From positions 15,296,517-15,360,516 of the forward strand of contig OX442318.1 of the NCBI GenBank assembly GCA_949358305.1: a stretch of DNA of 64,000 bases, read 5' to 3'. Origin of the DNA: Strigamia acuminata. Lineage: Eukaryota > Arthropoda > Chilopoda > Geophilomorpha > Linotaeniidae. The notes under the pieces are model-generated. The model did not search any database. It saw only the letters and a list, made by a program, of their open reading frames with translations, and was not told the DNA's origin. Positions 38,389 through 64,000 of the stretch are shown piece after piece. The first letter of the stretch is position 1. Every line of letters starts with the position of its first letter. The position numbers and the translations under genes were made by a program.

Positions 38389-38499
38389 CTTGGCTAGGCT
38401 TATCCACGGCCACCCAACCATCCCGCGGGCCCCAGGAGGCGCGAACGGAAGAGTTGGGGGATTGCTAGTCAAGGTTTTTCAATCTCACTTATTGAGATT
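38389..38499 (+). ncRNA. Structured leader element, Copia5 copy
   Basis: P1 stem CTTGGCTAG (38389-38397) with CTAGTCAAG (38465-38473; one G-U pair), enclosing GCTTATCCACGG, TCCCGCG, CCAGG and GCGAACGGA. A 7-nt spacer follows, then the 19-nt hairpin AATCTCACTTATTGAGATT (38481-38499). It lies 125 nt before the Gag ATG. The same architecture occurs in Copia2, Copia3 and Copia6 with different stem sequences. Confidence 0.7.
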
Positions 38500-41600: not shown

Positions 41601-43471
41601 AACCTGAAATTCCTCCTGGGATTCAAACACGGCGTGGATCACGATCAAGAAAAAAGCAAGGGAACGTGATGTTACATCCGGAACTACTGCCGTTAAACAT
41701 GGCGGAATGGGAACGACGCGCATCCGTCCGCAAAGACGGAGCGACGGCGGGACAAATAGATGTTGTTTACATCACGCCCTTAAAGGATAAGATAAGAAGT
41801 CGAGTTGATATCGCACGGTGGTGCGATGAAGAAGGGTACGCATATGATGCGACCTTATTTGACTTTAAGACATTAGAGGGGGACGGTGAACCGTTAGGGT
41901 TTGCAGGTTTCTGTGCCGTCGAGCCGGAAACCTACGAAGAAGCCATGTACCACGTCAAGCGTCCTGATTGGATAAAAGCCATGAGAGAGGAAATTGATGT
42001 GTTCGATGAAAGAACGGTTTACAAGGAAGTTGACAAAACAACTTTAGACGAGGGTACGACTCTCTTGGGATCGAAATGGATATACAAAATGAAGCGCGAC
42101 CACACGGGTGTTATCCAACGCTACCGAGCCCGACTCGTCGCACAGGGCTTTAAGCAAAAGCCCGGAGTTGACTTTGCGGAGGTGTTCTCCCCCGTCGTCA
42201 ACTTTGTGCTAGTGATAGTGTTCTTTTGCACTTTGGTGATACTCAAGGGATGGCGGGATTTACACCTGGATATCAAGGCCGCGTACCTTTACGGGGACCT
42301 CGATACGGTACAGTACATGGAGATCCCCAAGGGATATCGTACCGCCCATAATAAGCATAAATGCTGGATGCTTTTAAAAGCACTTTATGGATTACACCAG
42401 TCCGGTCGTATGTGGTACCAGGTCCTCCACATACGACTACTTGAATTGGGCTTTCAACCGTTGTTGGGTTTAAACTGTGTCTATGCCCTAGACAACGATG
42501 CAATAGTCATCTTTTACGTGGACGATATCGTGTTGTTTTCCAAGGATGACTATGTGGAACAATGCGTTTTGAAGTGGTTACGGGAATCGTTTGAAGTAGT
42601 GAGTCTGGGGCCCGTAACTTTACTTTTAGGAATTGAGTTTGATAGGTCCGGGGGCATGATTAAAATCCACCAACGGAAATATATTGAAAAGCTTTGTAAA
42701 GCGTACGGGATTGACTCGTGCCATCGAGTAAAGGTTCCAGTAACCCCGGGAACCATGATTCAAGGTGTAAGAACCGGGGAAAAAGCCGACACCTCATTCC
42801 CGTACAGATCTCTGGTCGGAAGTCTGTTGTTCATCGCCAGCCGAACCAGACCCGACATACTGTTTTCAGTAATAGTGCTTTCCCAGTATAACGAGACGCA
42901 TTCGACGCGCCATGTCAATATGTTACTGCAGGTCCTGCGATATTTGGCCACCACGTCGAATTATTCGATTAACTTATCGAACTGTAAAAACGAGAATTTG
43001 ACAGTTTACACCGACGCGTCGTTTGCCCTAGATCAAGACAGACGACGAAGCTTTGGGGGACATATTGTCTATATGGGTGGCATTCCCATCTCGTGGAATT
43101 GCCACAAACAATCGATGACCTCCCTGTCGATCATGGAGAGCGAATTTCTCGCCGTGGTCGATGGGGTGAAGGAAGTTATTTGGCTCGAGCGCCTTTACGA
43201 CGCGAAGATAATGTTTTGTCTCGAGCGAAATACGCCCTGTGTTTTTGCGGATAGCCAGCCGGCTATCCAATACTGTAAGAATAGGATCGAGAACAGGGCA
43301 AATAAACATATAGACGTGAAGCTCCATTTCGTTAGAGATTGGTTTGAGAAAGGAACGTTTTTAATCGAACATGTTTCTGGCGAATTAAATGTCGCGGATA
43401 TTCTGACGAAATGGTTAGCTAAATCCAGATTGAACGCGCTATGCGAATACATCTTTGTAATTGACAAATAG
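38624..43471 (+). CDS. Copia5 Gag-Pol polyprotein (1,615 aa)
   Basis: Start chosen at ATG 38624 (MASYDRHDDY), which aligns with Gag starts of the other copias; the frame is open upstream only from a GTG. Order: Gag helical domain (UBN2/retrotrans-gag type, LRREFLDMRLHENEEMFVF), CCHC knuckle CFTCGGTGHFARECP near residue 250, protease WYVDTGATDHFSF near 330, GAG-pre-integrase HSRLGHLNAKG, integrase CDFC, HLDVWGPAP, KTDNGGEF, AERANRTI, a Pro-rich linker, RT WIYKMKRDHTG with YVDDIVLFS near 1298, and RNase H YTDASFALDQ, ESEFLAVVDGVKE and NKHIDVKLHFVRDW. No stop or frameshift, all catalytic motifs present: probably functional. The single-ORF layout means Gag and Pol are made as one precursor unless regulated in another way. 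Confidence 0.95.
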   Translation: MASYDRHDDYKDVKKLDGTNYPTWSVQVQLLLQSYGVWGHVTGKTKEPPAGSPFRETRDFEKGEERARSTICLACSEAQQVVAVAQATAKEVWEALKAAYQPTTRARKARLRREFLDMRLHENEEMFVFTARVDRKVVQLADVKIQISDEFHAFQYLDLLPPQYEPVKQTVYHWGDTEFTAAAVKERLVGEYNRLHVTTDEFGVPSKAPLENTGAFFNQGGRQRGRGGNAPGGPRICFTCGGTGHFARECPTPPKQQFQPKGNQTGQFRGNPRGKGRGRGQQKATVTQADIFSDSPVSYYSAAIWLQQQPPVPASHVSHANYDSQWYVDTGATDHFSFNKDWFSDFKPLTGHVQQGEGKSRIEGIGNVTLTSIYGTRTRAITLHNVFYAPNFRKNLISLGRTDEAGATTMIKNGKMVIYNDKIDDPSITAERTSDRMYKVNCRISPVNTAALPAQQAATVSSSPLIKGDEVVNSILTYPSFKDALTQNSSESGKPAPAIKGQASVANNAPANVTTNAQANVSNKIKAKTANASKEASSIVQNNADKAENGNNSTNGVKTFDKKDKAQTMDIWHSRLGHLNAKGIAGLEKSTDVFGLKLSNKELSTCDFCARAKSTRASFPPIIGITTKSILEIVHLDVWGPAPVQTLGGAYYYLILIDDFSRFMWIIIMKRKSDVLGHFKRWLLEVERTTSKKVKAIKTDNGGEFISRQWDDYVATIGLKCMRTNAYSPEMNSVAERANRTILNGTRALLFENKFPATLWAELAVSVVYLKNRFPHTGIGGKTPYSVFYNKKLSLRHVKCIGSLTYVHIPSQTRGGKLQDRAWAGALIGYAASTRGYRIWDPNKNQVFLSKHVKIFENNFWFELGTVASPELENDFDTSSSDSFNGSFSDDDSVVGDPIPAEIPEPPPAIQEVPQPAPQQKVKPALPTTPKPTLRPELRPVAKQAAQQPPLMPIEGNPIFGDGDTGDEPVEEIGGAKGDDGNYFNIYPDNDGEPEIPPGIQTRRGSRSRKKQGNVMLHPELLPLNMAEWERRASVRKDGATAGQIDVVYITPLKDKIRSRVDIARWCDEEGYAYDATLFDFKTLEGDGEPLGFAGFCAVEPETYEEAMYHVKRPDWIKAMREEIDVFDERTVYKEVDKTTLDEGTTLLGSKWIYKMKRDHTGVIQRYRARLVAQGFKQKPGVDFAEVFSPVVNFVLVIVFFCTLVILKGWRDLHLDIKAAYLYGDLDTVQYMEIPKGYRTAHNKHKCWMLLKALYGLHQSGRMWYQVLHIRLLELGFQPLLGLNCVYALDNDAIVIFYVDDIVLFSKDDYVEQCVLKWLRESFEVVSLGPVTLLLGIEFDRSGGMIKIHQRKYIEKLCKAYGIDSCHRVKVPVTPGTMIQGVRTGEKADTSFPYRSLVGSLLFIASRTRPDILFSVIVLSQYNETHSTRHVNMLLQVLRYLATTSNYSINLSNCKNENLTVYTDASFALDQDRRRSFGGHIVYMGGIPISWNCHKQSMTSLSIMESEFLAVVDGVKEVIWLERLYDAKIMFCLERNTPCVFADSQPAIQYCKNRIENRANKHIDVKLHFVRDWFEKGTFLIEHVSGELNVADILTKWLAKSRLNALCEYIFVIDK

Positions 43472-43478
43472 CTAAACG

Positions 43479-44491: not shown

Positions 44492-47400
44492 TCACGATAA
44501 GTTGAAATTGAAAATCCGGGAAATCAGGAGACGCAGTTGGGATGATCCCAACCATTTGGTAAAAATGTCTGCCACGTTCATTGATCCGAGGACTTTGCGC
44601 AATTGAAATGCGCCTGCTGTGTACCATTCCCGAATCCAATGAAATTTCACTCGGATATGTTTCGTTTTACTGTTCTCCACGTCATTCGATGTGAATTGGA
44701 TGGAAGAAAGCGCATCGGAGAACACTATAGGTGGTGAAGATCTATTCAGCATCGGTACGGAACTGTAGACGTAATCGAGCCAATAAATCTCACGGACGCA
44801 CTCAACGAGGGCGACAAACTCCGCTTCCATCGTTGAGCACGCCACGCTGGTTTGTTTACGACAACTCCATCCGATGGGGACGTTTCCAATATAGGCTATA
44901 TACCCGCCGAAACTCAAAGAAGTGCTGACTTCGGTGGCCCAGGACGCGTCAGTATATCCCCATAGTTGTCCATTGGAACAATTTGATAGTTCAATTGCGT
45001 AATCCAAAGTATTGCCTACATAGCGCACAACCTGCATGAGCGCCTTGATGTGAGTGTGGTTGTAGCAATTATTGAACTGTGACAACATTATCACTGAGAA
45101 TAATATATCAGGTCGTGTCCTCGATGCGAGGAAGAGAAGAGAGCCAATTAACGAACGATAAGGAAATTCTGGCAAGTCCTCTTTCGACCCTTTGACGAGC
45201 GTCGTTCCTGGTGTTACTGGGACCTTGATGAGTTTATCGGCGACAATTTCAAATTTCTTGAGAATCTTCTGTATGTATGCACGTTGGATGATGAAGATTC
45301 CCTTGGGAGTACGAATGAACTCTACACCTAAGAGTTTCGTAATCGGTCCTAAATTCACGACATCGAATTTGGTGCTGATAAGAGCAATTAATTGCGTCAG
45401 GATGCCATCCGTCGCGTGAAATAGTACTATATCATCGACGTATATTAGCATCACGGCGGAAGTTCCGTATATGTACACACAGTTGCACCCTGGTAATCTG
45501 CGAAATCCCAAATCGCGCAATGTTTGATCCAGTTTTTCAAACCATTGGCGCCCGGACTGATGGAGTCCGTAGAGAGACTTTATCAAAAGCCATACATGAT
45601 TTGGGTTCGAACATGTCGCGCCAGCTGGAATGCGCATATACACCTTATGCGCAAGATCACCGTATAGGTATGCGCACTTCACATCCAAATGCGCGTCCTT
45701 CCACCCTTTAAGCACTACTAGCAGGCAGAAGAATAGGCGTATGAGAACAAAGTTGACAACAGGGCTAAAGACTTCATCGTAGTCCACTCCTAACGTTTGG
45801 CGAAAGCCCTGTGCCACTAATCTAGCGCGATATCTGGCTGGTTTGCCTAGAGCATCTTCCTTCAGTTTGAAGAGCCACTTACACCCTAATATGGTTGTAT
45901 TTTCCGGTTTAGGGACCTCTTCATAGACGCCTCTTTTTGCAAAAGTGTCTAATTCTTCATTAATGGCTTCTTGCCATTTTGTCGCATCCGGAAGTCTCAC
46001 AGCCTCTGCGTAACTAGTGGGATCACGACGACAAAGGTGCACTCTGGGAAGTGGTTGTGGGAGATCCTCCAATTCATATTCCATATTGCCAAAATAAAAT
46101 AGTTCGGAATCATACGGAATGTTGTTCATGTGACAGAATTCCTCAACCTCGCCTCTAGAACGTAGTCGGAGTCCTGCTTCTGGGAAATAATAAACATCTG
46201 TTTTTAATTTGCCAGGTTCCTGTACTTTGCGCAAATGTTCCTCCCTTTTCCAGTGTCTACACACAGTATCTCCACCAATGTAACGCCACTTATACGCAGT
46301 TGCTGCTCCAGTTGGAGGTGGACCATGGTGGACTGCTTGATGAGCTTGTGGCGCATTTCCACGAGAGCCTCGACGAGCATTTACAAAACTCGGAGGTGAA
46401 CCAGGTGGTGTATGACTTGGTGTATTGCCGGGAGTAATAACTGGACTCGGCACTGGTGTTATTACTGGAGTAATTAGAGGGGCTCGAATAGGAGATCCCG
46501 GAGTTGGAGTGGCTGGCGGAGTCCGGAATTGAGCACCCGCTGGGGTCGAATCGTCAGAGTCATAGTCTGTATCACATTCATCCTCTGAATCCGGAAATTT
46601 GGGCCAATCAGTATATTGTAGACCGTCGTCTTCAAACCTCACTTGCGGTTGTGAAATGCGCAATGGTTGACGAATTTGTGACGATTGACGCGTTTGGTCC
46701 AGATCTGGTCCCATCCACGGTTGCTGTGGACCTCGATAATGATTAGAGCGCTTATAAGATTGCCGTTCATCAATTTGGACGTGAATGGACTCGATGACCT
46801 TGTTGTCTGTCGGATTCCAGATGCGGTAGCCTCGCGTTGTGGTGGCGTATCCAACCAAGTAGCCCTCCCAAGCTCGTGGATCGAGCTTGTCCCTGCCAGG
46901 TGCTGTGTGATGAACCCAGCACTTGGAGCCTAACTTGCGCAGGTGTCTAAGCGAAAGGGCACGTCGTCGCCACAGGATATAGGGGACCTCATTTTTGAGA
47001 CGAGAATGAGGGCACCGGTTCTTTATATAGGAGAAAGTCACTGCGAATTCCGCCCAAAGTTCATTAGGTAATCCGGTTTCATCTAAAATGGCACGAGTAT
47101 AATCCGCCATTGTGCGATTTATTCGTTCTGCTGTGCCATTCATAGCGGGGCTATGGGGATTGGTCCGCTGGGCTTGAATTCCAGTTTCTTTCAGATAACG
47201 TTCAAATTCATTCGATATGAATTCTCCTCCTCGGTCAGTTCGGATGGCCTTGACTCGTTTGCCCGTCACTCGTTCAATTCGCGTGACGTAATCTTTAAAC
47301 AATCCAAATACTTGGGATTTTTGGGCCATCGGAAATATCCAGGCGTAGCGCGTGGCGTCGTCGATAATCGTTAGCACATAACGCGCGCCTCCGTAGGAAG

Positions 47401-49300
47401 TCGTTCTTGAGGCTCCCCACACATCCATGTGCAGGAGATCTAAAGCCTTGGTTGCAATGGGGTTTGCATCCGGCTTGTGAGAAATGCGCGTTGATTTCGC
47501 AATTCTGCAATGATTACACGAGAGTTCTTTGTTCACTTCTGCCGGTGTAACTCCGTAAACTTGTTCATTTCCGGCCAAAAGTTTCATAGCATTGGTATGA
47601 AGATGACCCAATCTGCTGTGCCATATCCCAGTCGCATCCTTTTTGACCGTAGGCGCTGCAACTTTCTTTTGATTCGCCGATTTTGGATTCGGTTTGGAAG
47701 TTGTAGGAATTGCCTTTATTGTATCGGCAAAGGATGGGACTTGAGGTAAAGGATTGGTAGGAACAGGTACAGGAGGTGTCTTGGACTGGGTTACTTTGAT
47801 TGGTACAGGTGGAGGAATTTCATTTGGCAAAGGAGGGAATTCGAGCCGAAAATCAGTAAAAAGTTCAGGATCTTTCGACTTTTTCTTTGCCCTTGGATAC
47901 TGGATGAAATCCTCTTCTGTCGTGACTAATGTTCGGGTCGGAGCGGTCGACTGCGCAATAGGCACATCCACTGTTGATATCAACGTTGAAGGTGGGCACA
48001 AGCCGTCAACATAGTAAAGGCCGCCCTTTTCTTTGGCCCGAAGCATTGGATGCTTAATGTCGGATTTGTAGACATAGACGTCTCCATTCCAAATATGGAT
48101 GTGATGTTTAGTTTTGTCCATTTTTGACACTGAAATCAAATTCGCCTCGAATTTTGGCGCATACAACACATCTTGGAGATTTACGACACATTCTACGTTG
48201 TTGATCATGGAGATAATCTGGACTTTGCCCTTTCCTAGAACTTCGGAATGTCCTTGGCCTAATGCGATATTAAAGGGCACAACTTTGACAAAGTCCTGAA
48301 ACCATGCTTGAACGTGGCACACATGATCAGTTGCCCCACAATCCACGATCCATTCATGTGATTGCATGAAGTGAATTGTGGGCAACTGTTGCGGAGCACT
48401 GGCGAAAAAGTTCGTTTCCCGCCTTGCGCTGGAATTCCCCCTTGGCCTCAAATCATCACGGTTTGAGTTCTTGTTGCGTTTGCGGCTAGAACTTCTTGGC
48501 TTCCTTTGAAGTGAAGCTGTCGGTTGATTTTTGTCATCTCGGCGCGGCGGTAATGAACATTTATTAGCATAATGGCCAAATTCCTGGCAATTAAAACACT
48601 GCACCGAAGATAACGGTCGAGAGGGACGAGAACGATTTCTCCCACGTTGCTGTTTTTCACCAGCATAGGCACGTGGAGATTTAGAATTGTCTATGTCGTG
48701 CGAATCCATAGCTTTGAGTCGCATATGTTCCGCGAGCAATTGTTCAGACACTTTCTTTGGTGTAAATTCTCCTTTGGGCAAGTGATATGTCGTGAATGAA
48801 ATTTGTGAATATTCACGAGGTAATAAGTCCAAGTATTGGTAAGCGTGATGATCAGGCGTGGTTATCTCTCCGATATCCTTCATTTGGCGGACATGATAGT
48901 CTACGCGTCCTAAGAAGTCGGCCATATCTTCGCCCTGCTCCAGGCGCAAATTCAAAAATTCGCGGCGCATGGCTGCCTGTCGCGCACGAGATGATGGCGC
49001 ATAAATGTTGGCTAAGATGTCCCATGCTTCCTTCGGGGTTTTACAATCATCTAGCGCAGACTTCTTCGCCTCGCTTACAGAACAGTATATTAAACCTAAA
49101 GCTTTGGCTTTACGACGCTTGTATTTCTTCTTCTCCTTATCTCCGGCGGTTTTAAGGAAATCTGCCTCTTCTTCTTCCGTCACATGTTCCCACAATTCTT
49201 CACTTCTCAGCACCATGCGCATTGAGCGCTGCCATAGTTCGTAGTTTCCTACGCTGAGAATGGGAAGTCGCCCGGAGTTTCCTTCGACGGACTTGGACAT
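44492..49300 (-). CDS. Copia2 Gag-Pol polyprotein (1,602 aa)
   Basis: ATG at 49300 (MSKSVEGNSGRLPILSVGNY). Gag domain to about residue 200, CCHC knuckle CFNCQEFGHYANKC at 235-248, protease WIVDCGATDH near 317-326 (DCG in place of the usual DTG/DSG), GAG-pre-integrase WHSRLGHLHTNAMKLL, integrase LHMDVWGASRTTS, RTDRGGEF, TAERINRTM, a linker of Thr-Pro repeats (VITPVPSPVITPGNTP), RT KWLFKLKEDALG with YVDDIVLFH near 1287, RNase H YTDASWATEV and KHIRVKFHWIREW. The frame is uninterrupted over 4.8 kb although the element has lost its 5' LTR and has Copia5 in its 3' LTR, so truncation was recent. It is very similar to Copia6. DCG also occurs in Copia3 and Copia6, so the Cys is a family trait and not a lesion. 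Confidence 0.93.
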   Translation of the reverse strand: MSKSVEGNSGRLPILSVGNYELWQRSMRMVLRSEELWEHVTEEEEADFLKTAGDKEKKKYKRRKAKALGLIYCSVSEAKKSALDDCKTPKEAWDILANIYAPSSRARQAAMRREFLNLRLEQGEDMADFLGRVDYHVRQMKDIGEITTPDHHAYQYLDLLPREYSQISFTTYHLPKGEFTPKKVSEQLLAEHMRLKAMDSHDIDNSKSPRAYAGEKQQRGRNRSRPSRPLSSVQCFNCQEFGHYANKCSLPPRRDDKNQPTASLQRKPRSSSRKRNKNSNRDDLRPRGNSSARRETNFFASAPQQLPTIHFMQSHEWIVDCGATDHVCHVQAWFQDFVKVVPFNIALGQGHSEVLGKGKVQIISMINNVECVVNLQDVLYAPKFEANLISVSKMDKTKHHIHIWNGDVYVYKSDIKHPMLRAKEKGGLYYVDGLCPPSTLISTVDVPIAQSTAPTRTLVTTEEDFIQYPRAKKKSKDPELFTDFRLEFPPLPNEIPPPVPIKVTQSKTPPVPVPTNPLPQVPSFADTIKAIPTTSKPNPKSANQKKVAAPTVKKDATGIWHSRLGHLHTNAMKLLAGNEQVYGVTPAEVNKELSCNHCRIAKSTRISHKPDANPIATKALDLLHMDVWGASRTTSYGGARYVLTIIDDATRYAWIFPMAQKSQVFGLFKDYVTRIERVTGKRVKAIRTDRGGEFISNEFERYLKETGIQAQRTNPHSPAMNGTAERINRTMADYTRAILDETGLPNELWAEFAVTFSYIKNRCPHSRLKNEVPYILWRRRALSLRHLRKLGSKCWVHHTAPGRDKLDPRAWEGYLVGYATTTRGYRIWNPTDNKVIESIHVQIDERQSYKRSNHYRGPQQPWMGPDLDQTRQSSQIRQPLRISQPQVRFEDDGLQYTDWPKFPDSEDECDTDYDSDDSTPAGAQFRTPPATPTPGSPIRAPLITPVITPVPSPVITPGNTPSHTPPGSPPSFVNARRGSRGNAPQAHQAVHHGPPPTGAATAYKWRYIGGDTVCRHWKREEHLRKVQEPGKLKTDVYYFPEAGLRLRSRGEVEEFCHMNNIPYDSELFYFGNMEYELEDLPQPLPRVHLCRRDPTSYAEAVRLPDATKWQEAINEELDTFAKRGVYEEVPKPENTTILGCKWLFKLKEDALGKPARYRARLVAQGFRQTLGVDYDEVFSPVVNFVLIRLFFCLLVVLKGWKDAHLDVKCAYLYGDLAHKVYMRIPAGATCSNPNHVWLLIKSLYGLHQSGRQWFEKLDQTLRDLGFRRLPGCNCVYIYGTSAVMLIYVDDIVLFHATDGILTQLIALISTKFDVVNLGPITKLLGVEFIRTPKGIFIIQRAYIQKILKKFEIVADKLIKVPVTPGTTLVKGSKEDLPEFPYRSLIGSLLFLASRTRPDILFSVIMLSQFNNCYNHTHIKALMQVVRYVGNTLDYAIELSNCSNGQLWGYTDASWATEVSTSLSFGGYIAYIGNVPIGWSCRKQTSVACSTMEAEFVALVECVREIYWLDYVYSSVPMLNRSSPPIVFSDALSSIQFTSNDVENSKTKHIRVKFHWIREWYTAGAFQLRKVLGSMNVADIFTKWLGSSQLRLLISRIFNFNLS

Positions 49301-49460: not shown

Positions 49461-49568
49461 GACCACTTCTGAAGTGGTCAGATAACCCTAGCCAGCCAAC
49501 ACACAGGGGTCCGTTCGCCTGCCTGGAGGCGCGGGAGTACCTGTTGGCCACGGTAAGCACTGGCTAGG
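49461..49568 (-). ncRNA. Structured leader element, Copia2 copy
   Basis: Minus strand: P1 CCTAGCCAG (49568-49560) with CTGGCTAGG (49495-49487), 64 nt enclosed with TGCTTACCGTGG, TCCCGCG, CCAGG and GCGAACGGA. Then a 7-nt spacer and the 19-nt palindrome GACCACTTCAGAAGTGGTC (49479-49461). It ends 160 nt before the Gag ATG, followed by TCCGCTTTGACAGTGCT. Confidence 0.75.
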
Positions 49569-49811
49569 AATGAGTTAATGCGGTAGTTCCGACTGGAACA
49601 GAAGAGCAAAAACTATTCTAAAGGGCCCCCAAAACCTTAAATATATCTTAAAATTAACAAGCTTATTACGACTACTGAAAAGGAATATTTGATTAGTGCG
49701 ATGAGACGTTGCGCCAATAATTGCAAAGCAAAAATGGCGTCGTTGCGCATTAAAATGCGAAAATCGTCGAAAATCGTCGTTTTTCTCGCCGAAAAATTCG
49801 AAAATCGTCGT

Positions 49812-50912: not shown

Positions 50913-50945
50913 ATGTGCAATGTCGATATTAACAGTTCGATGAAA

Positions 50946-53900
50946 TTATTTCGAGATGAAGATCCGGGACAACAAATTTCGGAGGCGTTCGGAACTAAGC
51001 CATTTCGTGAAAATATCTGAAACATTTATTTCACCCGGAATTTTGCGGAGTTCGAAGCACCCGGCAATATGCCATTCTCGAAGCCAATGGAACTTCACTC
51101 GAATATGTTTGGTTTTCGAGTTCTCGATGTCGTTGTTCGTGAATTGGATCGAGGCGAGGGCATCGGAGAAAATAATCGGTTTCGATAATCGGTTTAACGG
51201 TGGAAAGACTCGATAGATACTGTCCAACCAGTATAACTCTTTAACGATTTCGACTAGTGCCACAAACTCGGCTTCCATGGTGGAACAGGCGACGCTGGTC
51301 TGCTTTTTGCAGCTCCAGCCGATTGGCACACAACCGATATAAAAGATGTATCCTCCGAAACTTCTCGATGTCGCAATGTCGCTCGCCCACGACGCATCTG
51401 TGTATCCCCACAGCTGACTGGAATTACACCCCGAGAGTTCGATCGAGAAATCGCTCGTGTTCGCCACGTATTTGAGAACTTGGAGCAAACACTTGATGTG
51501 GCGGTGGTCGTAGCAGTTATTATACTGCGATAAAGCGATGACCGAATATAATATGTCGGGACGAGTGCGAGAAGCGAGGAATAATAACGATCCGATGAGC
51601 GATCGGTACGGAAAGTCCGGGAGATTATCCAACGAGCCTTTGACGAGCGTGGTCCCCGGTGTGACAGGCACTTTAATGAGTGCATCTGACGAAACGTTGA
51701 ACTTTTTAAGAAGTTTGTCGATGTAGGAGCGTTGGGACATGAAAACTTTCCCATCGCGACGCACGAATTCTACCCCGAGTAATTTGGTTATTGGTCCGAG
51801 GTTGACGATGTCGAATTTGCTGGAAATCAGCGCCAAAATACGGTCTCGGATACTCTCCGACGCGTAAAACACGACGATATCGTCCACGTAGACTAACATA
51901 ACAGCCGAATGTCCAAATGCGTAAACGCAATTACAAGCGGGAAATTTCTGGAATCCGAGGTCGGTTAACGTCTCGTTGAGCTTCTGGTACCACATGCGCC
52001 CCGACTGGTGAAGACCGTAAAGTGACTTGGTTAACAACCAGACGTTGTCGGGTGAGGTGCATGTGGCGCCGGCGGGAATCCGCATGTAAATTTCGTGGTC
52101 GAGGTCGCCGTAAAGGTAGGCACACTTGACGTCGAGGTGGAGATCCCTCCATCCTAGTAAAACGACTAGGAGGCAGAAAAAGAATCGGATGAGCACGAAG
52201 TTAACCACCGGACTAAAAACTTCATCGAAATCAACGCCCATTGTTTGGCGGAAACCTTGTGCGACAAGTCGAGCACGGTAGCGGTGAATTTTCCCGGTGG
52301 CATCCGATTTCAACCGAAAAATCCATTTACACCCGAGGATTGTCTTGTCCGGGGGTCGTGGAACTTCCTTATAAACTTCGCGTTCCTTGAAAGTCGTGAG
52401 CTCCTCATCGATTGCCTCCGTCCATTTCGGTGCCTCGGGTAGCTTGACTGCTTCGGCGTACGTGGACGGCTCTCGAAAACACATAAGAACGCGGTGAACA
52501 GGTTGCTCGTCCTGCAATTGATGTTCGAGGTTGCCGAAAAAGAAAATGTCCTCTTCATACGGAAGTTGGTGAGCGACGCAATATCTTTCGATGTCCCCTC
52601 TCGACCTTAAGCGGACACCGTGCTCCGGATAGTAATAAACGTCGACCTTGATTTTACCAGGCGCTTGTTCTTTCCGGAGATGCTCTTCCCTCCTCCATCC
52701 GCTGAAGGGCGTATCTCCACCAATAAAACGATAGGGGCAGTGAAGAGCGCGTAACGGAGCGAGGGGCGGTGCAGGCGTTGCAGCGGCCGCTGGTAAGGCG
52801 GCTGCCTTATCGAGGAGATCATCGAGGAGATTATCAAGTGGATCATCTTCGGGGTCGTGCTCGAAATCACGTTCGGGATAGCGTTCGAAAAATTGTTCGA
52901 TATCGTGATCAACGTCGAGTTCACTATCGCTGGCCTCAGGGGTGTGAGGTTGACGAGCCAAAGCATCGGGACGTAATCTCCTCCGAGGACGGTAAAGCGG
53001 AAGTGGTGGGTCAGGCGTGACGTCCAAATCGATGTCCTCCGGTACATCGTCCGCAAACAGAATAGGAGGAGGCAATTCATCAGCAATGTCCTCTTCGACC
53101 TCCTCGAGGACGGAGCGATATGAAGCGACTGATGAAGCGCTTGATGGAGCCCGATGGCGGAATTCATCATCGTCATTAGATGATTCATCGTCGGAATCAC
53201 GACGTCGACGTGACCAGGGGACAGATGGGAAAGCGCCATCGTCAAAAGTGACACGAGACGGTGTAGTGACGCGAGAAGGCTCCTCCATGAATGGAGCATT
53301 TTCGTAGGGATCCGGAACGTAAAACGGCGAGCGTTTGAAATTCTGACGTTCATCGATTTGAACGTGAACGGATTCCGTGACGGTGTTCGTAGCCGGATTC
53401 CAAACCCGATAACCGCGAGTGTTGGAGGCGTAACCTACGAGGAATCCTTCCCACGCCCGTGGATCCATTTTGTTGCGCCCGGGTGCGGTGAAATGCACCC
53501 AGCATTTAGAACCAATTTTTCGGAAATGTTTGACGGAGAGGGCACGCTGGCGCCATAAAACATATGGAACTTCGTCGTTAAGTTTCGAATGCGGGCTGCG
53601 ATTTTTAACGTACGAAAATGTCACAGCGAGTTCAGCCCAAAGTGTGTGTGGAAAACCGGTTTCGGAGGTAATAGAGCGAAGATAGTCGCCCATCGTCCGG
53701 TTTAGGCGTTCGGCGACCCCGTTCATTTGCGGGCTTCCGGGATTGGTCCGTTGTGCGACAATGCCCTTGTCAGCGAGGTAACGGTCAAAAGTCTTAGAAA
53801 TAAATTCCCCGCCGCGATCCGTGCGAATTGATTTGACGCGGGAATCCGTAATACGTTCAACGCGAGAGACAAAGTCTTTGAAAGTTGTGAAGACGTCGGA

Positions 53901-55886
53901 TTTGCGTGCAATCGGAAAAATCCACGAATATCGGGTCGCGTCGTCAACAATGGAGAAGGCATAATCAGCACCGCCAATCGAAATCAGTCTTGACGGGCCC
54001 CAGACGTCCATGTGCAGCAACTCCAACGGTTTGGTTGTCGAAGGTGTGGGAATCGGTTTATGCGAGGCGCGCGTGGACTTGGCAATGCGACATGAGTTGC
54101 AGGAAAGTTCTTGTCGAACCGCAGCCGGATCGAGTCCATAAACTTGGGAATTGTTCGCCAAAGTCCGCATGGCTTTGGTGTGGAGATGGCCCAACCTGGC
54201 ATGCCATAATCCCGTGGCATCCGCAACGTTCGCAGTCGGCGTTATAACCTTTTTAGGAGGTGGGACTGCCGTAGTCGTGGCAACGGGAGACGGAGGAGAT
54301 GATAGGACGTTGGAATACATCCGGATCTGTTGTGGTTTAGATCCGGCAACAGGATTGGGGATGATCGGGGAAGGAGAAGGCACGAGTAGGGTGTTGGGAG
54401 AGATAGGTAAGCGGAAGTCGGTCATTTCAACGTTTGATATTTTCTTCGACTTCTTTGAGGGCATCGCGGGAAAATCTTCCTCCTTCGTGATGAGAGTCAT
54501 CGGCGCAGTAGTCGGAGGTGACATTGGGATGGGCGGTGTACTCGAAACAACAGTCGGCGACGCAAATGGCGAAATTAGTCCATCTACGAAGTAAAGTCCT
54601 GACTTTTGCTTCGCCCGAAGAACACTTTGTTTGATATCCGTCCCATATGTATGCAACTCCGAATTGTAAATGTGTATGTGATGCCCACATTTATCGACTC
54701 GCGAAACCGAAATTAAATTAGCGCCGAAATCAGGTGCGTACAAAACATCGCGGAGAAGTACGGTGCATTCACAGCCATCGATGAGTGACTTGACTGGAAC
54801 ATTCCCTTTTCCGGTAACTTTGGAGCTTCCTTGTCCCAATTCGATATTAAAAGGGACGACCTCAACAAAGTCCAAGAACCACGATTTAACGTGTGAAACG
54901 TGGTCGGTGGCGCCGCAGTCAACAATCCATTCGTGAGATTGGACGAAATGAACGGTAGGAACCTGGATCGCAGGTGGTGCGGACAGGAGATATGCTGCAT
55001 CTCGGCGCGGGCGTGAAGACTCGCGAAACTGTCCCTGCTGCTGTTGATTCGGGTTCACATTCGGATTCGAGCCTTTATTGCGGCGTCGACTCTTGCTGCG
55101 AGATCGTGTCTGAAACGTAGCTACCGGCTGTTGCCCAGTTGTTTGCTTGCGAGGATGCTGGCACTTATTGGCGTAGTGTCCAAGCTCGTTGCAATTGAAG
55201 CAACGCACCTGCGCAAGCGGGCGCGGAGGTCGCGACTGGTTACGTCCTTGTCGCCCAGTAGCATAAGCGGAGGAGTTCGTAGAATTCCGGTTTGAATGCG
55301 ACTTTAATCGGAGATATTCCGACAACAACTGTTCGGAGACTTTAGCCGGGGTAAACTCTGCCAGCGGCCAATGATAAATGGCAAAAGTCGCCTGGTCGTA
55401 TTCGTCCGGAAGAAAGTCTAAATACTGGTACGCGTGATGTCGAGGGAGGATGTCTTCACCGACGTCTTTAAGTTGGCGGACCATAAGGTCAACGCGGCTG
55501 AGGAAATCGGCCATTTCTTCGCCGGGCTCCAACTTGAGCTGCAGGAACTCACGGCGCATCGCCGCTTGGCGGGCGAGAGAGCTGGGGGCGTAAATTTTCG
55601 CTAAAATGTCCCACGCCTGTTTCGGAGTGGTGCAACCGTCGAGGGCCGACTGTTTGGCCTGCGAGACGTGGCAATAAATGGTCCCCAGCGCTCGGGCTTT
55701 CCGACGTTGCCATTTTCGCCAAACGTCTTCATCGACGTTGGCTTTCACTAGTTCCTCCGTTTCGGTGACGTGGTGCCATACGCCGTCGGACATCAATAGC
55801 ATTTTAATTGCACGGTGCCAGTGTTCGTAATTGCCGGTCACGAGAATCGGCACATGGCCTGACGACTGGTCGGTGGCCTTTTTCAT
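50946..55886 (-). CDS. Copia3 Gag-Pol polyprotein (1,646 aa)
   Basis: Start set at ATG 55886 (MKKATDQSSGHVPILVTGNY) because it aligns with the Copia2 and Copia6 starts; the frame is open further upstream only from a GTG at 56273. Gag domain, CCHC knuckle CFNCNELGHYANKC, protease WIVDCGATDHVSH, GAG-pre-integrase WHARLGHLHTKAM, integrase LHMDVWGPSR, RTDRGGEF, GVAERLNRTM, a long acidic linker, RT KWIFRLKSDATG with YVDDIVVFY near residue 1333, RNase H YTDASWASDIATS and KHIRVKFHWLREW. No interruption. About as divergent from Copia2 as separate families usually are. Codon usage is more GC-rich than that of Copia2 and of flanking DNA. Confidence 0.95.
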   Translation of the reverse strand: MKKATDQSSGHVPILVTGNYEHWHRAIKMLLMSDGVWHHVTETEELVKANVDEDVWRKWQRRKARALGTIYCHVSQAKQSALDGCTTPKQAWDILAKIYAPSSLARQAAMRREFLQLKLEPGEEMADFLSRVDLMVRQLKDVGEDILPRHHAYQYLDFLPDEYDQATFAIYHWPLAEFTPAKVSEQLLSEYLRLKSHSNRNSTNSSAYATGRQGRNQSRPPRPLAQVRCFNCNELGHYANKCQHPRKQTTGQQPVATFQTRSRSKSRRRNKGSNPNVNPNQQQQGQFRESSRPRRDAAYLLSAPPAIQVPTVHFVQSHEWIVDCGATDHVSHVKSWFLDFVEVVPFNIELGQGSSKVTGKGNVPVKSLIDGCECTVLLRDVLYAPDFGANLISVSRVDKCGHHIHIYNSELHTYGTDIKQSVLRAKQKSGLYFVDGLISPFASPTVVSSTPPIPMSPPTTAPMTLITKEEDFPAMPSKKSKKISNVEMTDFRLPISPNTLLVPSPSPIIPNPVAGSKPQQIRMYSNVLSSPPSPVATTTAVPPPKKVITPTANVADATGLWHARLGHLHTKAMRTLANNSQVYGLDPAAVRQELSCNSCRIAKSTRASHKPIPTPSTTKPLELLHMDVWGPSRLISIGGADYAFSIVDDATRYSWIFPIARKSDVFTTFKDFVSRVERITDSRVKSIRTDRGGEFISKTFDRYLADKGIVAQRTNPGSPQMNGVAERLNRTMGDYLRSITSETGFPHTLWAELAVTFSYVKNRSPHSKLNDEVPYVLWRQRALSVKHFRKIGSKCWVHFTAPGRNKMDPRAWEGFLVGYASNTRGYRVWNPATNTVTESVHVQIDERQNFKRSPFYVPDPYENAPFMEEPSRVTTPSRVTFDDGAFPSVPWSRRRRDSDDESSNDDDEFRHRAPSSASSVASYRSVLEEVEEDIADELPPPILFADDVPEDIDLDVTPDPPLPLYRPRRRLRPDALARQPHTPEASDSELDVDHDIEQFFERYPERDFEHDPEDDPLDNLLDDLLDKAAALPAAAATPAPPLAPLRALHCPYRFIGGDTPFSGWRREEHLRKEQAPGKIKVDVYYYPEHGVRLRSRGDIERYCVAHQLPYEEDIFFFGNLEHQLQDEQPVHRVLMCFREPSTYAEAVKLPEAPKWTEAIDEELTTFKEREVYKEVPRPPDKTILGCKWIFRLKSDATGKIHRYRARLVAQGFRQTMGVDFDEVFSPVVNFVLIRFFFCLLVVLLGWRDLHLDVKCAYLYGDLDHEIYMRIPAGATCTSPDNVWLLTKSLYGLHQSGRMWYQKLNETLTDLGFQKFPACNCVYAFGHSAVMLVYVDDIVVFYASESIRDRILALISSKFDIVNLGPITKLLGVEFVRRDGKVFMSQRSYIDKLLKKFNVSSDALIKVPVTPGTTLVKGSLDNLPDFPYRSLIGSLLFLASRTRPDILYSVIALSQYNNCYDHRHIKCLLQVLKYVANTSDFSIELSGCNSSQLWGYTDASWASDIATSRSFGGYIFYIGCVPIGWSCKKQTSVACSTMEAEFVALVEIVKELYWLDSIYRVFPPLNRLSKPIIFSDALASIQFTNNDIENSKTKHIRVKFHWLREWHIAGCFELRKIPGEINVSDIFTKWLSSERLRNLLSRIFISK

Positions 55887-56008: not shown

Positions 56009-56118
56009 AATTCCTTCTGAAGGAATTAAATAGCTTTCGGTTGCCAGTCTGAGAGGGTCCGTTCGACTTCCTGGAGCCGCGGGAAACCTCACTTGTACCA
56101 CGACAAGCACAACCGAAA
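56009..56118 (-). ncRNA. Structured leader element, Copia3 copy
   Basis: Minus strand: P1 TTTCGGTTG (56118-56110) with CAACCGAAA (56043-56035), enclosing 66 nt with TGCTTGTCGTGG, TCCCGCG, CCAGG and TCGAACGGA. A 7-nt spacer follows, then the 19-nt palindrome AATTCCTTCAGAAGGAATT (56027-56009). It ends 122 nt before the ATG. Stem sequences differ from Copia2 at most positions, but pairing is complete. Confidence 0.75.
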
Positions 56119-56548
56119 AATACAACGGCGCTTGCCCGGATTCGGACGAAGGGCGCCGAGGATTCTAATTGTCCCACACCAAAATTCCCACTTAAAATTA
56201 ACAAAGGTAATTCGACTCTGAAAGGCAAAATAAGGCGAAATTGACGAATCAGTCGCGGTGCACGTCGCAACACGCGATCCTCGTGTGAAAAACACGGATA
56301 TGTGCGATTTTAAACGAAAAATCGCGAAAAATGAACGAAAATCGTCGATACTGTCGCACTCCGGGGTGCTAAACAGCGGGTTACACCCGTTTCTCGGTGA
56401 TAACGTCGTGTAGACGTCGTCGCATGTCGAAAATCGGTGTAAATCGGCGAAAAATCTGAAAATATAGAAAATTTCCGCAAAATTCGCGAAAAAATCGCGA
56501 AAATTGTGGAAAATTAAGGAAAAAACGAGGCCCTGGTGTCTTTCCAGG

Positions 56549-56560: not shown

Positions 56561-56562
56561 AT

Positions 56563-57135
56563 TGTGGTGGTATGCTGCAAAAACAGCACAGACTAGGCAG
56601 TGGAAACGCTTAAAAATAAGCCAACACGCACGATATAGCACGCACGAGACGTGCGGCGCGTCGTGTACGCGAATTCGAGCCGGTTCTGGTCGAATTTGCG
56701 TGGTGTCTGCACTTATCTACGTGCAGACACAAGAAACGAATTATTTATAAACAAAATAAACGATTTATTAACCTAAAACTTACGAAAACAGGATTGAAAA
56801 GCACAGGAGCACACTTAGCAGTGTGCGTCGCCATCTTGGAATAAAAGGGAGTGCGCTCTGGTGACAGAAGCGAGCGACTCACAGGTATAAACAGATAGGC
56901 GATGCATGATGCCCAGTGTGTTAAGACACAGTTAATGCAGGCACCATGCATTTCCCTTACAACATAAAGTAAATATACGGAAATAAACTGGTAACAACCA
57001 GTTAAGTAGGAAATAAACACCAAATCATTTGGGGAAAGGAAATATAACGACCAATGATGTGAAAAAGTTCAGGTAGCGTCATTGTGCATCGAAAAAGCGT
57101 TAAATAAACGTCCGAAGTGGTTTCAAGGACCAACA
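56563..57135 (-). repeat. Copia3 5' LTR
   Basis: 573 bp, same as 50327-50899 by eye; flanked outside by GTTGA. YY1-like motif at 56827-56839. Confidence 0.93.
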
Positions 57136-60429: not shown

Positions 60430-60447
60430 AGTGGTAGCAGAGGATGG
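60418..60447 (+). promoter_or_regulatory. Copia6 PBS and overlapping U5 hairpin
   Basis: TGGTAGCAGAGGATGG (60432-60447) matches the complement of the last 16 nt of initiator tRNA-Met. The end of the LTR, TCCTCTGCTAC (60418-60428), is an exact 11-nt inverted repeat of GTAGCAGAGGA (60434-60444), so the PBS can fold into a hairpin with a 5-base loop. Confidence 0.85.
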
Positions 60448-61038
60448 TTGCTATCCTTGCAGCACGCCGAAACCGCTAATTTTTATCGCCATTTTCGCGA
60501 AATTCGCGAATTTGCGATAAATTTTCTATTTGCAGATTGCGCCGATTTCCGCGACGATTTTCGTCTCTAGAACGTTCGAGACGACACGCCGACGTTCTCA
60601 CGTAGTCTGCACGACCTGCTCTACGATTTTTCATTTAATTTCGTCCGGATTTCTGCGGGTTTCGCAATTTTCGAGACGAATTTCAATTTATTTCCAGATT
60701 TTCGCTATTTTCCAACGACAATCAACGTTGGAAACCCGCTTTACACAGCGTGAACGACGGTTGGACTAATTCCCGACTTAGTACACCGTGTACGGTCGTT
60801 ATATCGACGATTTTTCTCGAAGAAACGACGATTTTCGACGATTTTCGCATTTTAAATGCGCAACAACGCCATTTTCGATTCTCGAGTATTGGCGCAACGT
60901 CTCATCACACTAATTAATACTTGCCTTTCAGTAGTCGTAATTAGCTTGTTAGTACTTAAGGTCGTATTAAGTTTTTGTGGGTCCTTTAGAATAGTTTTTG
61001 CTCTTCTGTTCCAGTCGGAACTACCGCATTAACTCATT
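60448..61038 (+). other. Copia6 leader, repetitive upstream part
   Basis: Contains palindromic TTTTCGCGAAATTCGCGAA (60493 region) and repeated CGACGATTTTCG words (60808-60852). The same word types recur in the Copia2 and Copia3 leaders. TTGCCTTTCAG (about 60921-60931) resembles a splice acceptor. Confidence 0.5.
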
Positions 61039-61146
61039 CCTAGCCAGTGCTTACCGTGGCCAACAGGTACTCCCGCGCCTCCAGGTAGGCGAACGGACCC
61101 CTGTGTGTTGGCTGGCTAGGGTTATTTGGCCACTTCAGAAGTGGTC
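61039..61146 (+). ncRNA. Structured leader element, Copia6 copy
   Basis: P1 CCTAGCCAG (61039-61047) with CTGGCTAGG (61112-61120), 64 nt enclosed. Inside it, GCCAAC (61059-61064) can pair with GTTGGC (61107-61112) or CAGG (61064-61067) with CCTG (61100-61103), and TGCTTACCGTGG, TCCCGCG and GCGAACGGA are conserved. Spacer of 7 nt, then 19-nt hairpin GGCCACTTCAGAAGTGGTC (61128-61146). TCCGCTTTGACAGTGCT follows at 61164-61180; ATG at 61304. Confidence 0.75.
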
Positions 61147-61303
61147 GCCCAATTCGATTGATATCCGCTTTGACAGTGCTCCGATTAGTGCGCCGTATTT
61201 GTGTAGTGCTACGCGATATTGTGCACCGAGACCGTCAAGTGCTCCAATTGTACCATTCTCCATCCAGTGTGTTTTGCTACGGATTGTTTCGTAACTCCAC
61301 GTC

Positions 61304-64000
61304 ATGTCGAAGTCCGCAGACGGAAATCCAGGACGTCTTCCCATCCTTAGCGTAGGAAACTACGAACTTTGGCAGCGCTCAATGCGCATGGTACTCCGAA
61401 GCGAGGAATTGTGGGAACACGTAACGGAAGAAGAGGAGGAAGATTTCCTTAAAACAGCTGGGGACAAAGAGAAAAAGAAGTACAAGCGTCGGAAAGCCAA
61501 AGCATTAGGCTTAATATACTGTTCAGTGAGCGAGGCGAAGAAGTCTGCGCTAGATGATTGTAAAACCCCGAAGGAAGCATGGGACATCTTAGCCAACATT
61601 TATGCGCCATCATCTCGTGCGCGACAGGCAGCCATGCGCCGCGAATTTTTGAATTTGCGCCTGGAGCAGGGCGAAGATATGGCCGACTTCTTAGGACGCG
61701 TTGACTATCATGTCCGCCAAATGAAGGATATCGGAGAGATAACTTCGCCTGATCACCACGCTTACCAATACTTGGACTTATTGCCTCGTGAATATTCACA
61801 GATTTCATTCACAACATATCACTTGCCCAACGGTGAATTCACACCAAAGAAAGTGTCCGAACAGTTACTCGCGGAACATATGCGACTCAAAGCTATGGAT
61901 TCACGCGACGTGGACAATTCAAAACATTCTCGTGCATATGCTGGTGAAAAACAGCAACGTGGGAGAAATCGTTCTCGTCCCCCTCGACCGTTATCTTTGG
62001 TGCAGTGTTTTAATTGCCAGGAATTTGGCCATTACGCAAATAAATGTCCTTTACCATCGCGCCGAGATGACAAGAATCAATCGACAGCTTCACTTCAAAG
62101 GAAGCCGAGGAGTTCAAGCCGTAAACGCAATAAGAACTCAAATCGAGATGATTCTAGGCCAAGGGGGAATTCCAGCGCAAGACGAGAAACAAACTTTTTC
62201 GCAAGTGCTCCGCAACAGTTGCCCACAATTCACTTCATGCAATCACATGAATGGATAGTGGATTGTGGGGCAACGGATCATGTGTGCCACGTCCAGGCTT
62301 GGTTTCAGGACTTTGTTAAAGTTGTGCCCTTTAACATAGCATTAGGTCAAGGACATTCCGAAGTTCTAGGAAAGGGCAAAGTCCAGATTATCTCCATGAT
62401 CAACAACGTAGAATGTGTCGTAAATCTCCAAGATGTGTTGTATGCGCCAAAATTCGAGGCGAATTTGATTTCAGTGTCAAAAATGGACAAAACTAAACAT
62501 CACATCCATATTTGGAATGGAGACGTCTATGTCTACAAATCCGACATTAAGCATCCAATGCTTCGGGCCAAAGAAAAGGGCGGCCTTTATTATGTCGACG
62601 GCTTGTGCCCACCTTCAACACTGATGTCAACAGTGGATGTACCTATTGCGCAGTCAATCGCTCCGACCCGAACATTAGTCACGACAGAAGAGGATTTCAT
62701 CCAGTATCCAAGAGCAAAGAAAAAGTCGAAAAATCCTGAACTTTTTACTGATTTTCGGCTCGAATTCCCTCCTTTGCCAAATGAAATTCCTCCACCTGTA
62801 CCAATCAAAGTAACCCAGTCCAAGACACCTCCTGTACCTGTTCCTACCAATCCATTACCTCAAGTCCCATCCTTTGCCGACACATTAAAGGCAATTCCTC
62901 CAACTTCCAAACCGAATCTAAAGTCGGCGAATCAAAAGAAAGTTGCAGCGCCTACGGTTAAAAAGGATGCGACTGGGATATGGCACAGCAGATTGGGCCA
63001 TCTTCACACCAATGCAATGAAACTTTTGGCCGGAAATAACCAAGTTTATGGAGTGACACCGGCAGAAGTGAACAAGGAACTTTCGTGTAATCATTGTCGA
63101 ATTGCGAAATCAACGCGCATTTCCCATAAACCTGATGAACATCCTATTTCTACAAAGGCTTTAGATCTCCTACACATGGACGTGTGGGGAGCTTCAAGAA
63201 CGACTTCCTACGGAGGCGCGCGTTATGTGTTAACGATTATCGATGACGCCACGCGCTATGCCTGGATATTTCCGATGGCTCAAAAATCCCAAGTATTTGG
63301 ATTGTTCAAGGACTATGTCACACGAATTGAACGAGTGACGGGCAAACGAGTCAAGGCCATCCGAACAGACCGAGGAGGGGAATTCTTATCAAACGAATTC
63401 GACCGCTATTTAAAGGAAACTGGGATTCAAGCCCAAAGGACCAATCCACATAGCCCCGCTATGAATGGCACAGCGGAAAGAATAAACCGCACCATGGCGG
63501 ATTACACGCGTGCCATCCTAGACGAAACCGGACTTCCAAACGAACTTTGGGCGGAATTCGCAGTGACTTTCTCGTACATAAAGAACCGGTGTCCTCATTC
63601 TCGTCTCAAAAATGAGGTGCCCTATATCCTGTGGCGACGACGTGCCCTTTCGCTCAGACACCTGCGCAAGTTAGGCTCCAAGTGCTGGGTTCATCATACA
63701 GCGCCCGGCAGGGACAAATTGGATCCACGAGCTTGGGAGGGTTATTTGGTTGGATACGCCACGACAACGCGAGGTTATCGCGTCTGGAATCCAACAGATA
63801 ACAAGGTTATCGAATCCATTCACGTCCAAATAGATGAACGACAGTCCTATAAACGCTCAAATCATTATCGAGGTCCACAGGAACCGTGGACAGGACCAGA
63901 CTTGGACCAAACGCATCAAGCGTCGCAAATTTATGAACCATTGCGCATTTCACAACCGCAAGTGAGATTTGACGACGAGTTGGAATATACCGATTGGCCC
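61304..64000 (+). CDS. Copia6 Gag-Pol polyprotein, N-terminal 899 codons
   Basis: I read the frame from ATG 61304 (MSKSADGNPGRLPILSVGNY) to the window end; I read the Gag part codon by codon without a stop and followed it more loosely after that. Gag domain, CCHC knuckle CFNCQEFGHYANKC, protease WIVDCGATDHVCH, GAG-pre-integrase WHSRLGHLHTNAMKLL, integrase LHMDVWGASRTTS, RTDRGGEF and TAERINRTM, then the linker. RT and RNase H lie beyond 64000. Most differences from Copia2 are single residues, so the two belong to one family. Confidence 0.9.
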   Translation, partial: MSKSADGNPGRLPILSVGNYELWQRSMRMVLRSEELWEHVTEEEEEDFLKTAGDKEKKKYKRRKAKALGLIYCSVSEAKKSALDDCKTPKEAWDILANIYAPSSRARQAAMRREFLNLRLEQGEDMADFLGRVDYHVRQMKDIGEITSPDHHAYQYLDLLPREYSQISFTTYHLPNGEFTPKKVSEQLLAEHMRLKAMDSRDVDNSKHSRAYAGEKQQRGRNRSRPPRPLSLVQCFNCQEFGHYANKCPLPSRRDDKNQSTASLQRKPRSSSRKRNKNSNRDDSRPRGNSSARRETNFFASAPQQLPTIHFMQSHEWIVDCGATDHVCHVQAWFQDFVKVVPFNIALGQGHSEVLGKGKVQIISMINNVECVVNLQDVLYAPKFEANLISVSKMDKTKHHIHIWNGDVYVYKSDIKHPMLRAKEKGGLYYVDGLCPPSTLMSTVDVPIAQSIAPTRTLVTTEEDFIQYPRAKKKSKNPELFTDFRLEFPPLPNEIPPPVPIKVTQSKTPPVPVPTNPLPQVPSFADTLKAIPPTSKPNLKSANQKKVAAPTVKKDATGIWHSRLGHLHTNAMKLLAGNNQVYGVTPAEVNKELSCNHCRIAKSTRISHKPDEHPISTKALDLLHMDVWGASRTTSYGGARYVLTIIDDATRYAWIFPMAQKSQVFGLFKDYVTRIERVTGKRVKAIRTDRGGEFLSNEFDRYLKETGIQAQRTNPHSPAMNGTAERINRTMADYTRAILDETGLPNELWAEFAVTFSYIKNRCPHSRLKNEVPYILWRRRALSLRHLRKLGSKCWVHHTAPGRDKLDPRAWEGYLVGYATTTRGYRVWNPTDNKVIESIHVQIDERQSYKRSNHYRGPQEPWTGPDLDQTHQASQIYEPLRISQPQVRFDDELEYTDWP

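Follow-up and report, generated by a model that had tools for sequence, protein, structure and literature searches.

The leaders of copia retrotransposons in Strigamia acuminata carry an RNA module of about 160 nt (159-161 nt in three families), which is composed of three parts: a P0 hairpin, a P1 domain, and a P4 hairpin. The existence of this RNA domain, its covariation, its position, and its confinement to one stretch of the leader were all observed. Compensatory changes preserve its stems, and several of its unpaired words are conserved in sequence. Judged from sequence features, the module is quite possibly a packaging/dimerisation domain, which is the reading we prefer and hold tentatively. 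Here, the window refers to the whole 64,000-nt stretch of DNA that was analysed, and positions are counted from its first letter unless a contig is named.

Copia copies and module architecture

The original prediction described the structure in four copies, and it is indeed present in all four. Copia2 and Copia6, however, belong to the same family, with 91.8% identity across 3.2 kb, so that the independent families are three, not four. Copia2 is apparently 5'-truncated near 49797, where its similarity to Copia6 ends, and one stretch resembling the Copia6 LTR was found at its 3' side only. Over the N-terminal 300 residues, the Gag identity is 56-57% between Copia6 and Copia3, 33-34% between Copia6 and Copia5, and 34-38% between Copia3 and Copia5. 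The elements are of the Ty1/copia type (Pseudoviridae), with Retrotran_gag_2, CCHC, integrase, and RVT_2 in this order in a single ORF, as seen whole in Copia5, by the Gag and RT ends in Copia2 and Copia3, and by Gag in Copia6; the CCHC knuckle is present in the Gag of Copia2, 3, 5, and 6. The single Gag-Pol ORFs comprise 1646 aa in Copia3 (50946..55886, minus strand), 1602 aa in Copia2 (44492..49300, minus), and 1615 aa in Copia5 (38624..43471, plus), and the Copia6 ORF, whose Gag start codon is at 61304..61306 (plus), continues past the window end. The LTR pairs of Copia5 (37005-43954) and Copia3 (50327-57138) are each 99.8% identical, which indicates recent insertions.

In Copia6, the whole module (UUAGAAU, P0, P1-P3 domain, P4) spans 60986..61146 on the plus strand (161 nt). 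The P0 hairpin (60989..61039), obtained by both RNAalifold and MFE folding, consists of the base GAAU/AUUC (60989-60992/61036-61039), the inner stem AGUU--UGC/GCA--AACU (60993-61001/61026-61034), and the cap GUUCC-AGUC-GGAAC (61008-61021). Its last base (61039) is shared with the P1 domain (61039..61120), whose arms (61039-61047/61112-61120) enclose 64 nt. Inside P1 are nested P2 (ACAGG/CCUGU, 61063-61067/61100-61104), a UCC/GGA helix (61071-61073/61095-61097), and P3 (CGCCU/AGGCG, 61076-61080/61087-61091) with the loop CCAGGU. A 7-nt spacer separates P1 from the 19-nt P4 hairpin, GGCCACTTCAGAAGTGGTC (61128..61146). The Copia6 primer-binding site (PBS), TGGTAGCAGAGG (60432..60443, plus), is one that we take to match the 3' end of initiator tRNA-Met.

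The Copia2 module, of the same family, lies at 49461..49621 (minus). In Copia3, the module of 160 nt (56009..56168, minus) has a P0 of CGGCGC/GCGCCG and GUCCG-AAUC-CGGGC, P1 at 56118-56110/56043-56035, a P3 of CGGCU/AGUCG, and P4 at 56027-56009. The Copia5 module of 159 nt (38341..38499, plus) has a P0 of GAAUCGGUGCUA/UAGCACUGUAUUC and GUCC-AGUC-GGGC, P1 at 38389-38397/38465-38473, a P2 of CCCAAC/GUUGGG, and P4 at 38481-38499. P0 begins after UUAGAAU, can be closed by GAAU/AUUC (AUUU in Copia3), and adjoins P1; its inner stem occurs as AGUU--UGC/GCA--AACU, CGGCGC/GCGCCG, or CGGUGCUA/UAGCACUG, and its cap as CC-AGUC-GG or CCG-AAUC-CGG. P3 is closed by a CCAGGN hexaloop and is longer in Copia5, where its own letters give a GCC/GGC pairing above a G-G mismatch.

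P1 and the 19-nt hairpin were found in all four window copies with the predicted coordinates and sequences, the equivalents of the Copia6 structure being at 49568-49461 (minus) in Copia2, 56118-56009 (minus) in Copia3, and 38389-38499 (plus) in Copia5. P4 ends 122-160 nt 5' of the Gag ATG in these copies, as against a predicted 120-160 nt. The element described at that time comprised P1 and P4, which form the 3' portion of the whole module, and it missed P0 upstream as well as P2 and P3 inside P1. Among the unpaired words said to stay, TCCCGCG, CCAGG, and CGAACGGA are present in all four copies, but GCTTA..C.CGG fits Copia5 and not Copia3, which has GCTTG, or Copia6, which differs in spacing.

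Several further features of these and neighbouring elements were recorded. Pfam MBD (PF01429) was detected before RT in the Pol of Copia5, Copia2, and Copia3 (E 1.8e-8, 6e-5, and 9.6e-6, respectively), and the scan of the complete Copia5 places it between integrase/SH3 and RT. Among the best 120 of 709 homologues of the Copia3 C-terminal piece, four were marked RVT_2 plus MBD, and the best named relative is a Strigamia maritima MBD protein (55% over 46% of the query). No description of MBD-bearing copia elements was found in the open-access literature; the domain could direct integration to methylated DNA or allow such DNA to be read. At least 11 Gag lineages related to Copia3, 5, and 6 (our own grouping) occur in the genome, with MBD known from Copia2, 3, and 5. 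Many frames of the related lineages are open (1600-1700 aa), and other copia lineages have frames of 1368, 1388, and 653 aa; the copia load of the genome is apparently diverse and young. Beside the Copia5 5' LTR lies a partial copia (31608-36505, minus) with integrase in one ORF and a partial RT in another (33609-36505), for which no leader was found within the window. A Ty3-type element (3919-9728, plus) contains Ty3_capsid below the cut-off, RVT_1, and Integrase_H2C2, and an inverted copy of its 3' part, with 91% identity, occupies 31293-33617.

Comparative support for the fold

RNAalifold was applied to a sequence-only MAFFT alignment of the three families, with no structure supplied. It recovered P1, P4, P2, UCC/GGA, and P3 together with the upstream P0, and the consensus fold of the module reached -47.6 kcal/mol, compared with -16.2 +/- 3.4 kcal/mol in 500 column shuffles, none of which was as low (z -9.2). 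The P1-to-P4 part alone gave z -8.2, again with 0/500 shuffles as low. Folding of single sequences was weak (z -1.7 to -2.2), and the evidence for the fold is therefore comparative.

Base-pair changes were counted in 29 sequences, namely 28 distinct modules from 90 fetched loci (one via the identical window Copia6) and Copia2; these rows derive from three families, so that the number of sequences should not be read as a number of events. Two-sided changes occurred in 21 of the 31 predicted pairs. For a version with 39 pairs, pairing was seen in 94.8% of 1131 cells, compared with 77.5% in shuffled and 31.5-43.0% in slid controls. The covariation score of this version was 0.556, as against 0.235 +/- 0.010 for shuffled and 0.06-0.15 for slid controls. 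Two of the five whole-structure measures were not above the 500 shuffles: the number of pairs with any two-sided change (22 vs 21.1 shuffled; 180/500 shuffles) and the number of further pair types (33 vs 47.7 shuffled; 500/500 shuffles). P3 scored low (79% of cells) because MAFFT misaligns the longer Copia5 P3. A two-sided change was also seen within one family, where the outer P4 pair turned from A-U to G-C in 3/30 Copia3-type loci. Across three independent families, the fold is accompanied by compensatory changes beyond shuffled and slid controls, as is characteristic of a covarying structural RNA. Each of the 90 fetched loci gave one covariance-model match; as these loci had been chosen for their leader similarity, the matches do not count as independent support.

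The signal is confined to one stretch of the leader. Sliding windows were run over the alignment of the Copia6 and Copia3 leaders, without Copia5 and with four gappy windows skipped, and z values of -3.1 to -4.8 were reached only where they overlapped the module (starts 60938-61058); the one starting at 61096 gave z -1.8, and the other 11 scored lay between -1.2 and +1.2. The module also varies less than the leader next to it: inside the stretch used for the search, the differences per site in the module and from the module to the ATG were 0.0071/0.0131, 0.0063/0.0177, and 0.0032/0.0260, with 22/480 variable sites in the module vs 42/403 in the module-to-ATG part (p = 0.001, the sites not being independent). 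A comparison with gag and the upstream leader is biased, because the loci were picked by similarity to a module-containing query. As a separate observation, the stretch from P4 to the Gag AUG folds better than shuffled in Copia5 (38503-38623; z -3.2, 1/200), while the values for Copia6 and Copia3 were z -0.7 and z 0.4.

Distribution in the genome

The genome search covered 237.5 Mb in 157 contigs. The pattern TCCCGCGN{2,8}CCAGGN{3,10}GAACGGA gave 201 matches (reversed control 0), CCAGGN{4,9}GAACGGA gave 297 (control 27), TTAGAATN{12,24}CCAGTCGG gave 139 (control 2), and CGCTTTGACAGTGC gave 213 (control 1). The ungapped 27-mer core with at most 3 mismatches matched 380 times (control 0); about 220 of these matches are estimated to be inexact, on the basis that 23 of 100 listed places (of 201) have the longer Copia5 form, so that about 155 of the 201 would be exact; the inexact ones fall outside the matches listed.

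On contig C1, for which the matches to CCAGGN{4,9}GAACGGA, CGCTTTGACAGTGC, and TTAGAATN{12,24}CCAGTCGG were listed in full, CCAGGN{4,9}GAACGGA stands before Gag at 36 of the 46 listed places of Copia6, Copia3, Copia5, and Z type (16/22, 10/10, 9/13, and 1/1, respectively), and 36 of the 68 core matches on this contig precede one of the listed Gag places. By the same exact-word search, it precedes Gag at none of the 41 places listed for seven sister lineages on C1 (X 0/3, Y 0/4, c5-b 0/5, c5-c 0/7, c5-d 0/10, c3-b 0/6, c3-c 0/6). The Gag places are those among the matches listed (131-132 per search), the lineage names and identity bands are our own grouping, and one C1 place with 68% identity to Copia5 Gag was left out of the lineage counts.

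Among the listed places on C1, the P0 pattern, which a Copia3-type P0 cannot match, precedes Gag at 9/22 Copia6-type, 9/13 Copia5-type, and 1/3 X places, and the downstream word does so at 16/22 Copia6-type, 10/10 Copia3-type, and 2/3 X places. The spacing from the P0 pattern to the downstream word on this contig is 179 nt at five places and 180 nt, the Copia6 spacing, at seven. One of the five 179-nt places lies directly before an X Gag. Contigs C5 and C6 contain five further 179-nt places, of which C5:15699275 also precedes an X Gag. Judging by these spacings, the frame of the module, at least, is also present in lineage X, with an unchanged length and a changed core. None of the three module words was found before the listed Gag places of Y, c5-b/c/d, and c3-b/c on C1. 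Some sister lineages without the core word are closer in Gag to Copia5 or Copia3 than those two are to each other, and the Copia5 sisters (64-79% Gag identity) do not have the exact words that Copia5 has in common with Copia6. Either word drift or an exchange of leaders between families could explain why the words are shared by Copia5 and Copia6 and not by the Copia5 sisters. All these comparisons concern one genome and three families compared at the letter level.

Seven stretches from a pattern scan of viral contigs were dismissed as chance matches, in which the covariance model found nothing, and the Copia5 RT piece had no relative among viral and prokaryotic contigs. No non-autonomous carrier, with the module and without gag, was seen among the 90 copies: of the 1300 nt of gag compared, 82 retain 1000 nt or more and 8 retain less. 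The two shortest gag remnants (25 and 57 nt) enter nested or unmatched sequence just after the AUG, and the other short copies retain 224-960 nt (six of the eight inspected individually, L055 and L058 left out).

Possible function and known systems

The named helices contain 126 Watson-Crick, 6 G-U, and 0 A-C pairs. These helices were chosen as paired, and only the contrast of G-U with A-C is informative; since G-U becomes A-C in the antisense strand, it points to the sense RNA. The sense alignment folds at -47.6 kcal/mol vs -40.3 kcal/mol for the antisense, whose z of -8.4 is close behind the -9.0 of the sense strand. A function in the sense-strand RNA is supported, not proven, the antisense fold being nearly as strong. 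The good antisense folding, together with near-palindromic P4 arms that could be DNA sites, would also agree with DNA-level regulatory dyad sites or plain shared ancestry, the apparent stems then having no RNA function. This is very improbable, given that 64-67 nt with nested covarying helices separate the two arms of P1, that G-U pairs occur and A-C pairs do not, and that Copia5 is 46-51% identical to the others in the module and yet 94.8% of pair cells are paired. The selected RNA element that had been claimed is supported by covariation beyond two kinds of control, confinement to one leader stretch, sense-strand G-U bias, lower variability than the adjacent leader, and no match in Rfam.

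From PBS to ATG, the leaders of Copia6, Copia3, and Copia5 measure 872, 674, and 1147 nt, in which the module starts 554, 392, and 864 nt after the PBS and ends 157, 122, and 124 nt before the Gag AUG, respectively. It lies between the PBS and the gag AUG, where a retroviral-type packaging signal is located. The constant module length, the near-constant distance to the Gag AUG, and the variable distance to the PBS (392-864 nt) support the packaging reading, but a near-constant spacing before the Gag AUG would be equally compatible with a translation element. Translation control by an IRES, enhancer, or attenuator that sets the Gag-Pol output of the single ORF is a possible, though rather less likely, function. 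It would fit the better conservation of the Gag AUG distance (122-157 nt) than of the PBS distance, as well as the lack of any AUG between the module and the Gag AUG (0 vs 7.6 expected, 0/2000 shuffles as low, three families). AUGs are, however, depleted in the leaders as a whole (6 seen vs 29.9 expected, 0/2000 shuffles as low, three families), both upstream of the module (6 vs 18.3, 1/2000) and within it (0 vs 3.2, 34/2000). The upstream deficit comes mostly from Copia5 (3 vs 10.6; Copia6 2 vs 4.3, Copia3 1 vs 3.5), and the anagram TGA is also rare in the Copia6 and Copia3 leaders (3 each, counted without a shuffle comparison). That AUGs are depleted both 5' and 3' of the module agrees with scanning and argues against an IRES as the sole route, since an IRES would lift that pressure upstream. 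In a CaMV-type ribosome shunt, a conserved short uORF ends just before a stable stem. In the window copies, a uORF of 58 codons in Copia6 (60856-61032) stops 6 nt short of P1 and one of 108 codons in Copia5 (38053-38379) stops 9 nt short of it, but a uORF ending 6-9 nt before P1 was found in 29/30 Copia6-type, 2/30 Copia5-type, and 0/30 Copia3-type loci; it is not conserved across families, so a shunt is unsupported.

An unspliced single-ORF RNA also needs export, and the module might serve the nuclear export or the stability of the unspliced RNA and be read by host factors. Covarying stems with conserved words in their internal loops would be suitable as a protein site, and a simple consensus scan found no splice-site pair common to the three leaders. 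This function is nevertheless unlikely: no known RNA family was matched in Rfam, and a fixed position before Gag is not required for export. As for a leader intron, an acceptor-like TTTCAG precedes the module by eye in Copia6 and Copia3 (TTTTCAG in Copia2), and the scan flagged the Copia3 acceptor only, plus another inside the Copia6 P0. Copia5 has no acceptor counterpart, and among the best six donors per leader none 5' of the module scored above 6/9 positions; the intron is unsupported by the scan.

If the module is a packaging/dimerisation domain, it would act in cis as a psi-like signal on the full-length RNA, to which the element's own Gag may bind via its CCHC zinc knuckle for packaging. 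The exposed loops and the near-palindromic P4 could possibly aid dimerisation, and a location just before the Gag AUG would suit the capture of RNA near the site of Gag synthesis. No palindrome of at least 6 nt is common to the three families, the module palindromes differing between them. Other points that weigh against the packaging reading are the small number of independent families (three), the missing exact core word before the 41 listed Gag places of sister lineages on C1, the two whole-structure measures that the shuffles equal, and the lack of non-autonomous carriers among the 90 copies. A kissing-loop dimerisation signal was considered and rejected, as no self-complementary apical loop is conserved across families; CCAGG is self-complementary only with an A-A mismatch. 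Of the functions originally proposed, the IRES loses ground by the AUG depletion 5' of the module, and packaging/dimerisation stands as the best guess, although the sequence does not separate the functions. It is a more doubtful proposition that the module represents a new RNA family, namely a psi domain of animal copia elements that acts as a modular cassette, is kept or exchanged among families with Gags about one-third identical, and through its recognition by each Gag possibly decides which RNAs enter which particles.

Rfam 15 gave 0 matches in the window at gathering cut-offs, and with permissive settings, 4 matches below threshold (E 0.11-5) were obtained in the three leader stretches. 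The open-access PMC literature yielded no account of a leader RNA with covariation in animal copia elements; the earlier remark that no described element of this form was known is plausible when compared against Rfam and this literature. Retroviral psi/DIS domains (HIV-1, HIV-2, MLV) are multi-hairpin RNAs between the PBS and the gag AUG. The copia module resembles them as a multi-hairpin RNA from PBS to gag AUG in a Gag-encoding element, but it has no Rfam match and no common palindromic loop, and its host elements are Ty1/copia. To our knowledge, detailed accounts of cis-acting RNA domains in LTR retrotransposons come mainly from yeast Ty1 and Ty3.

According to excerpts of published work, the dimerisation and packaging sequences of Ty1, Ty3, and HIV-1 are within structured 5' RNA (PMC11381356, PMC5454406). 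Ty1 TIPIRT belongs to the same Ty1/copia superfamily, and in the excerpted account the Ty1 5' RNA is tied to packaging, dimerisation, and transposition and contains a 5' pseudoknot and SL1a/SL3a kissing loops, the pseudoknot spanning the first 326 nt and the domain 380 nt (PMC5454406). In contrast, the copia module lies 392-864 nt 3' of the PBS, and nested hairpins suffice for it. Ty3 PAL6 is likewise a dimerisation sequence of an LTR retrotransposon that a hairpin presents within the 5' region of the RNA, but in that partial account it is a short GC-rich palindrome (PMC11381356), whereas no palindrome is common to the three copia families. Very conserved non-coding motifs in divergent copia elements are also described for the plant Sirevirus; those named in the excerpt are the PPT/3' LTR junction, an integrase signal, and repeated motifs (PMC2829016), and the copia module differs from them as a covarying leader RNA. 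A spliced gag RNA sets the Gag:Pol ratio of the single ORF in copia of Drosophila and BARE of barley, as far as the excerpt describes (PMC3735527); in the leaders studied here, a scan limited to the leader found no common splice-site pair. A leader domain in young animal copia elements provides a defined target for the study of RNA choice in packaging or translation, and the covariance model could be applied to other arthropod genomes. The kind of element is one known from the Ty1 and Ty3 5' RNA, and the copia leader family of such RNA appears to be new.
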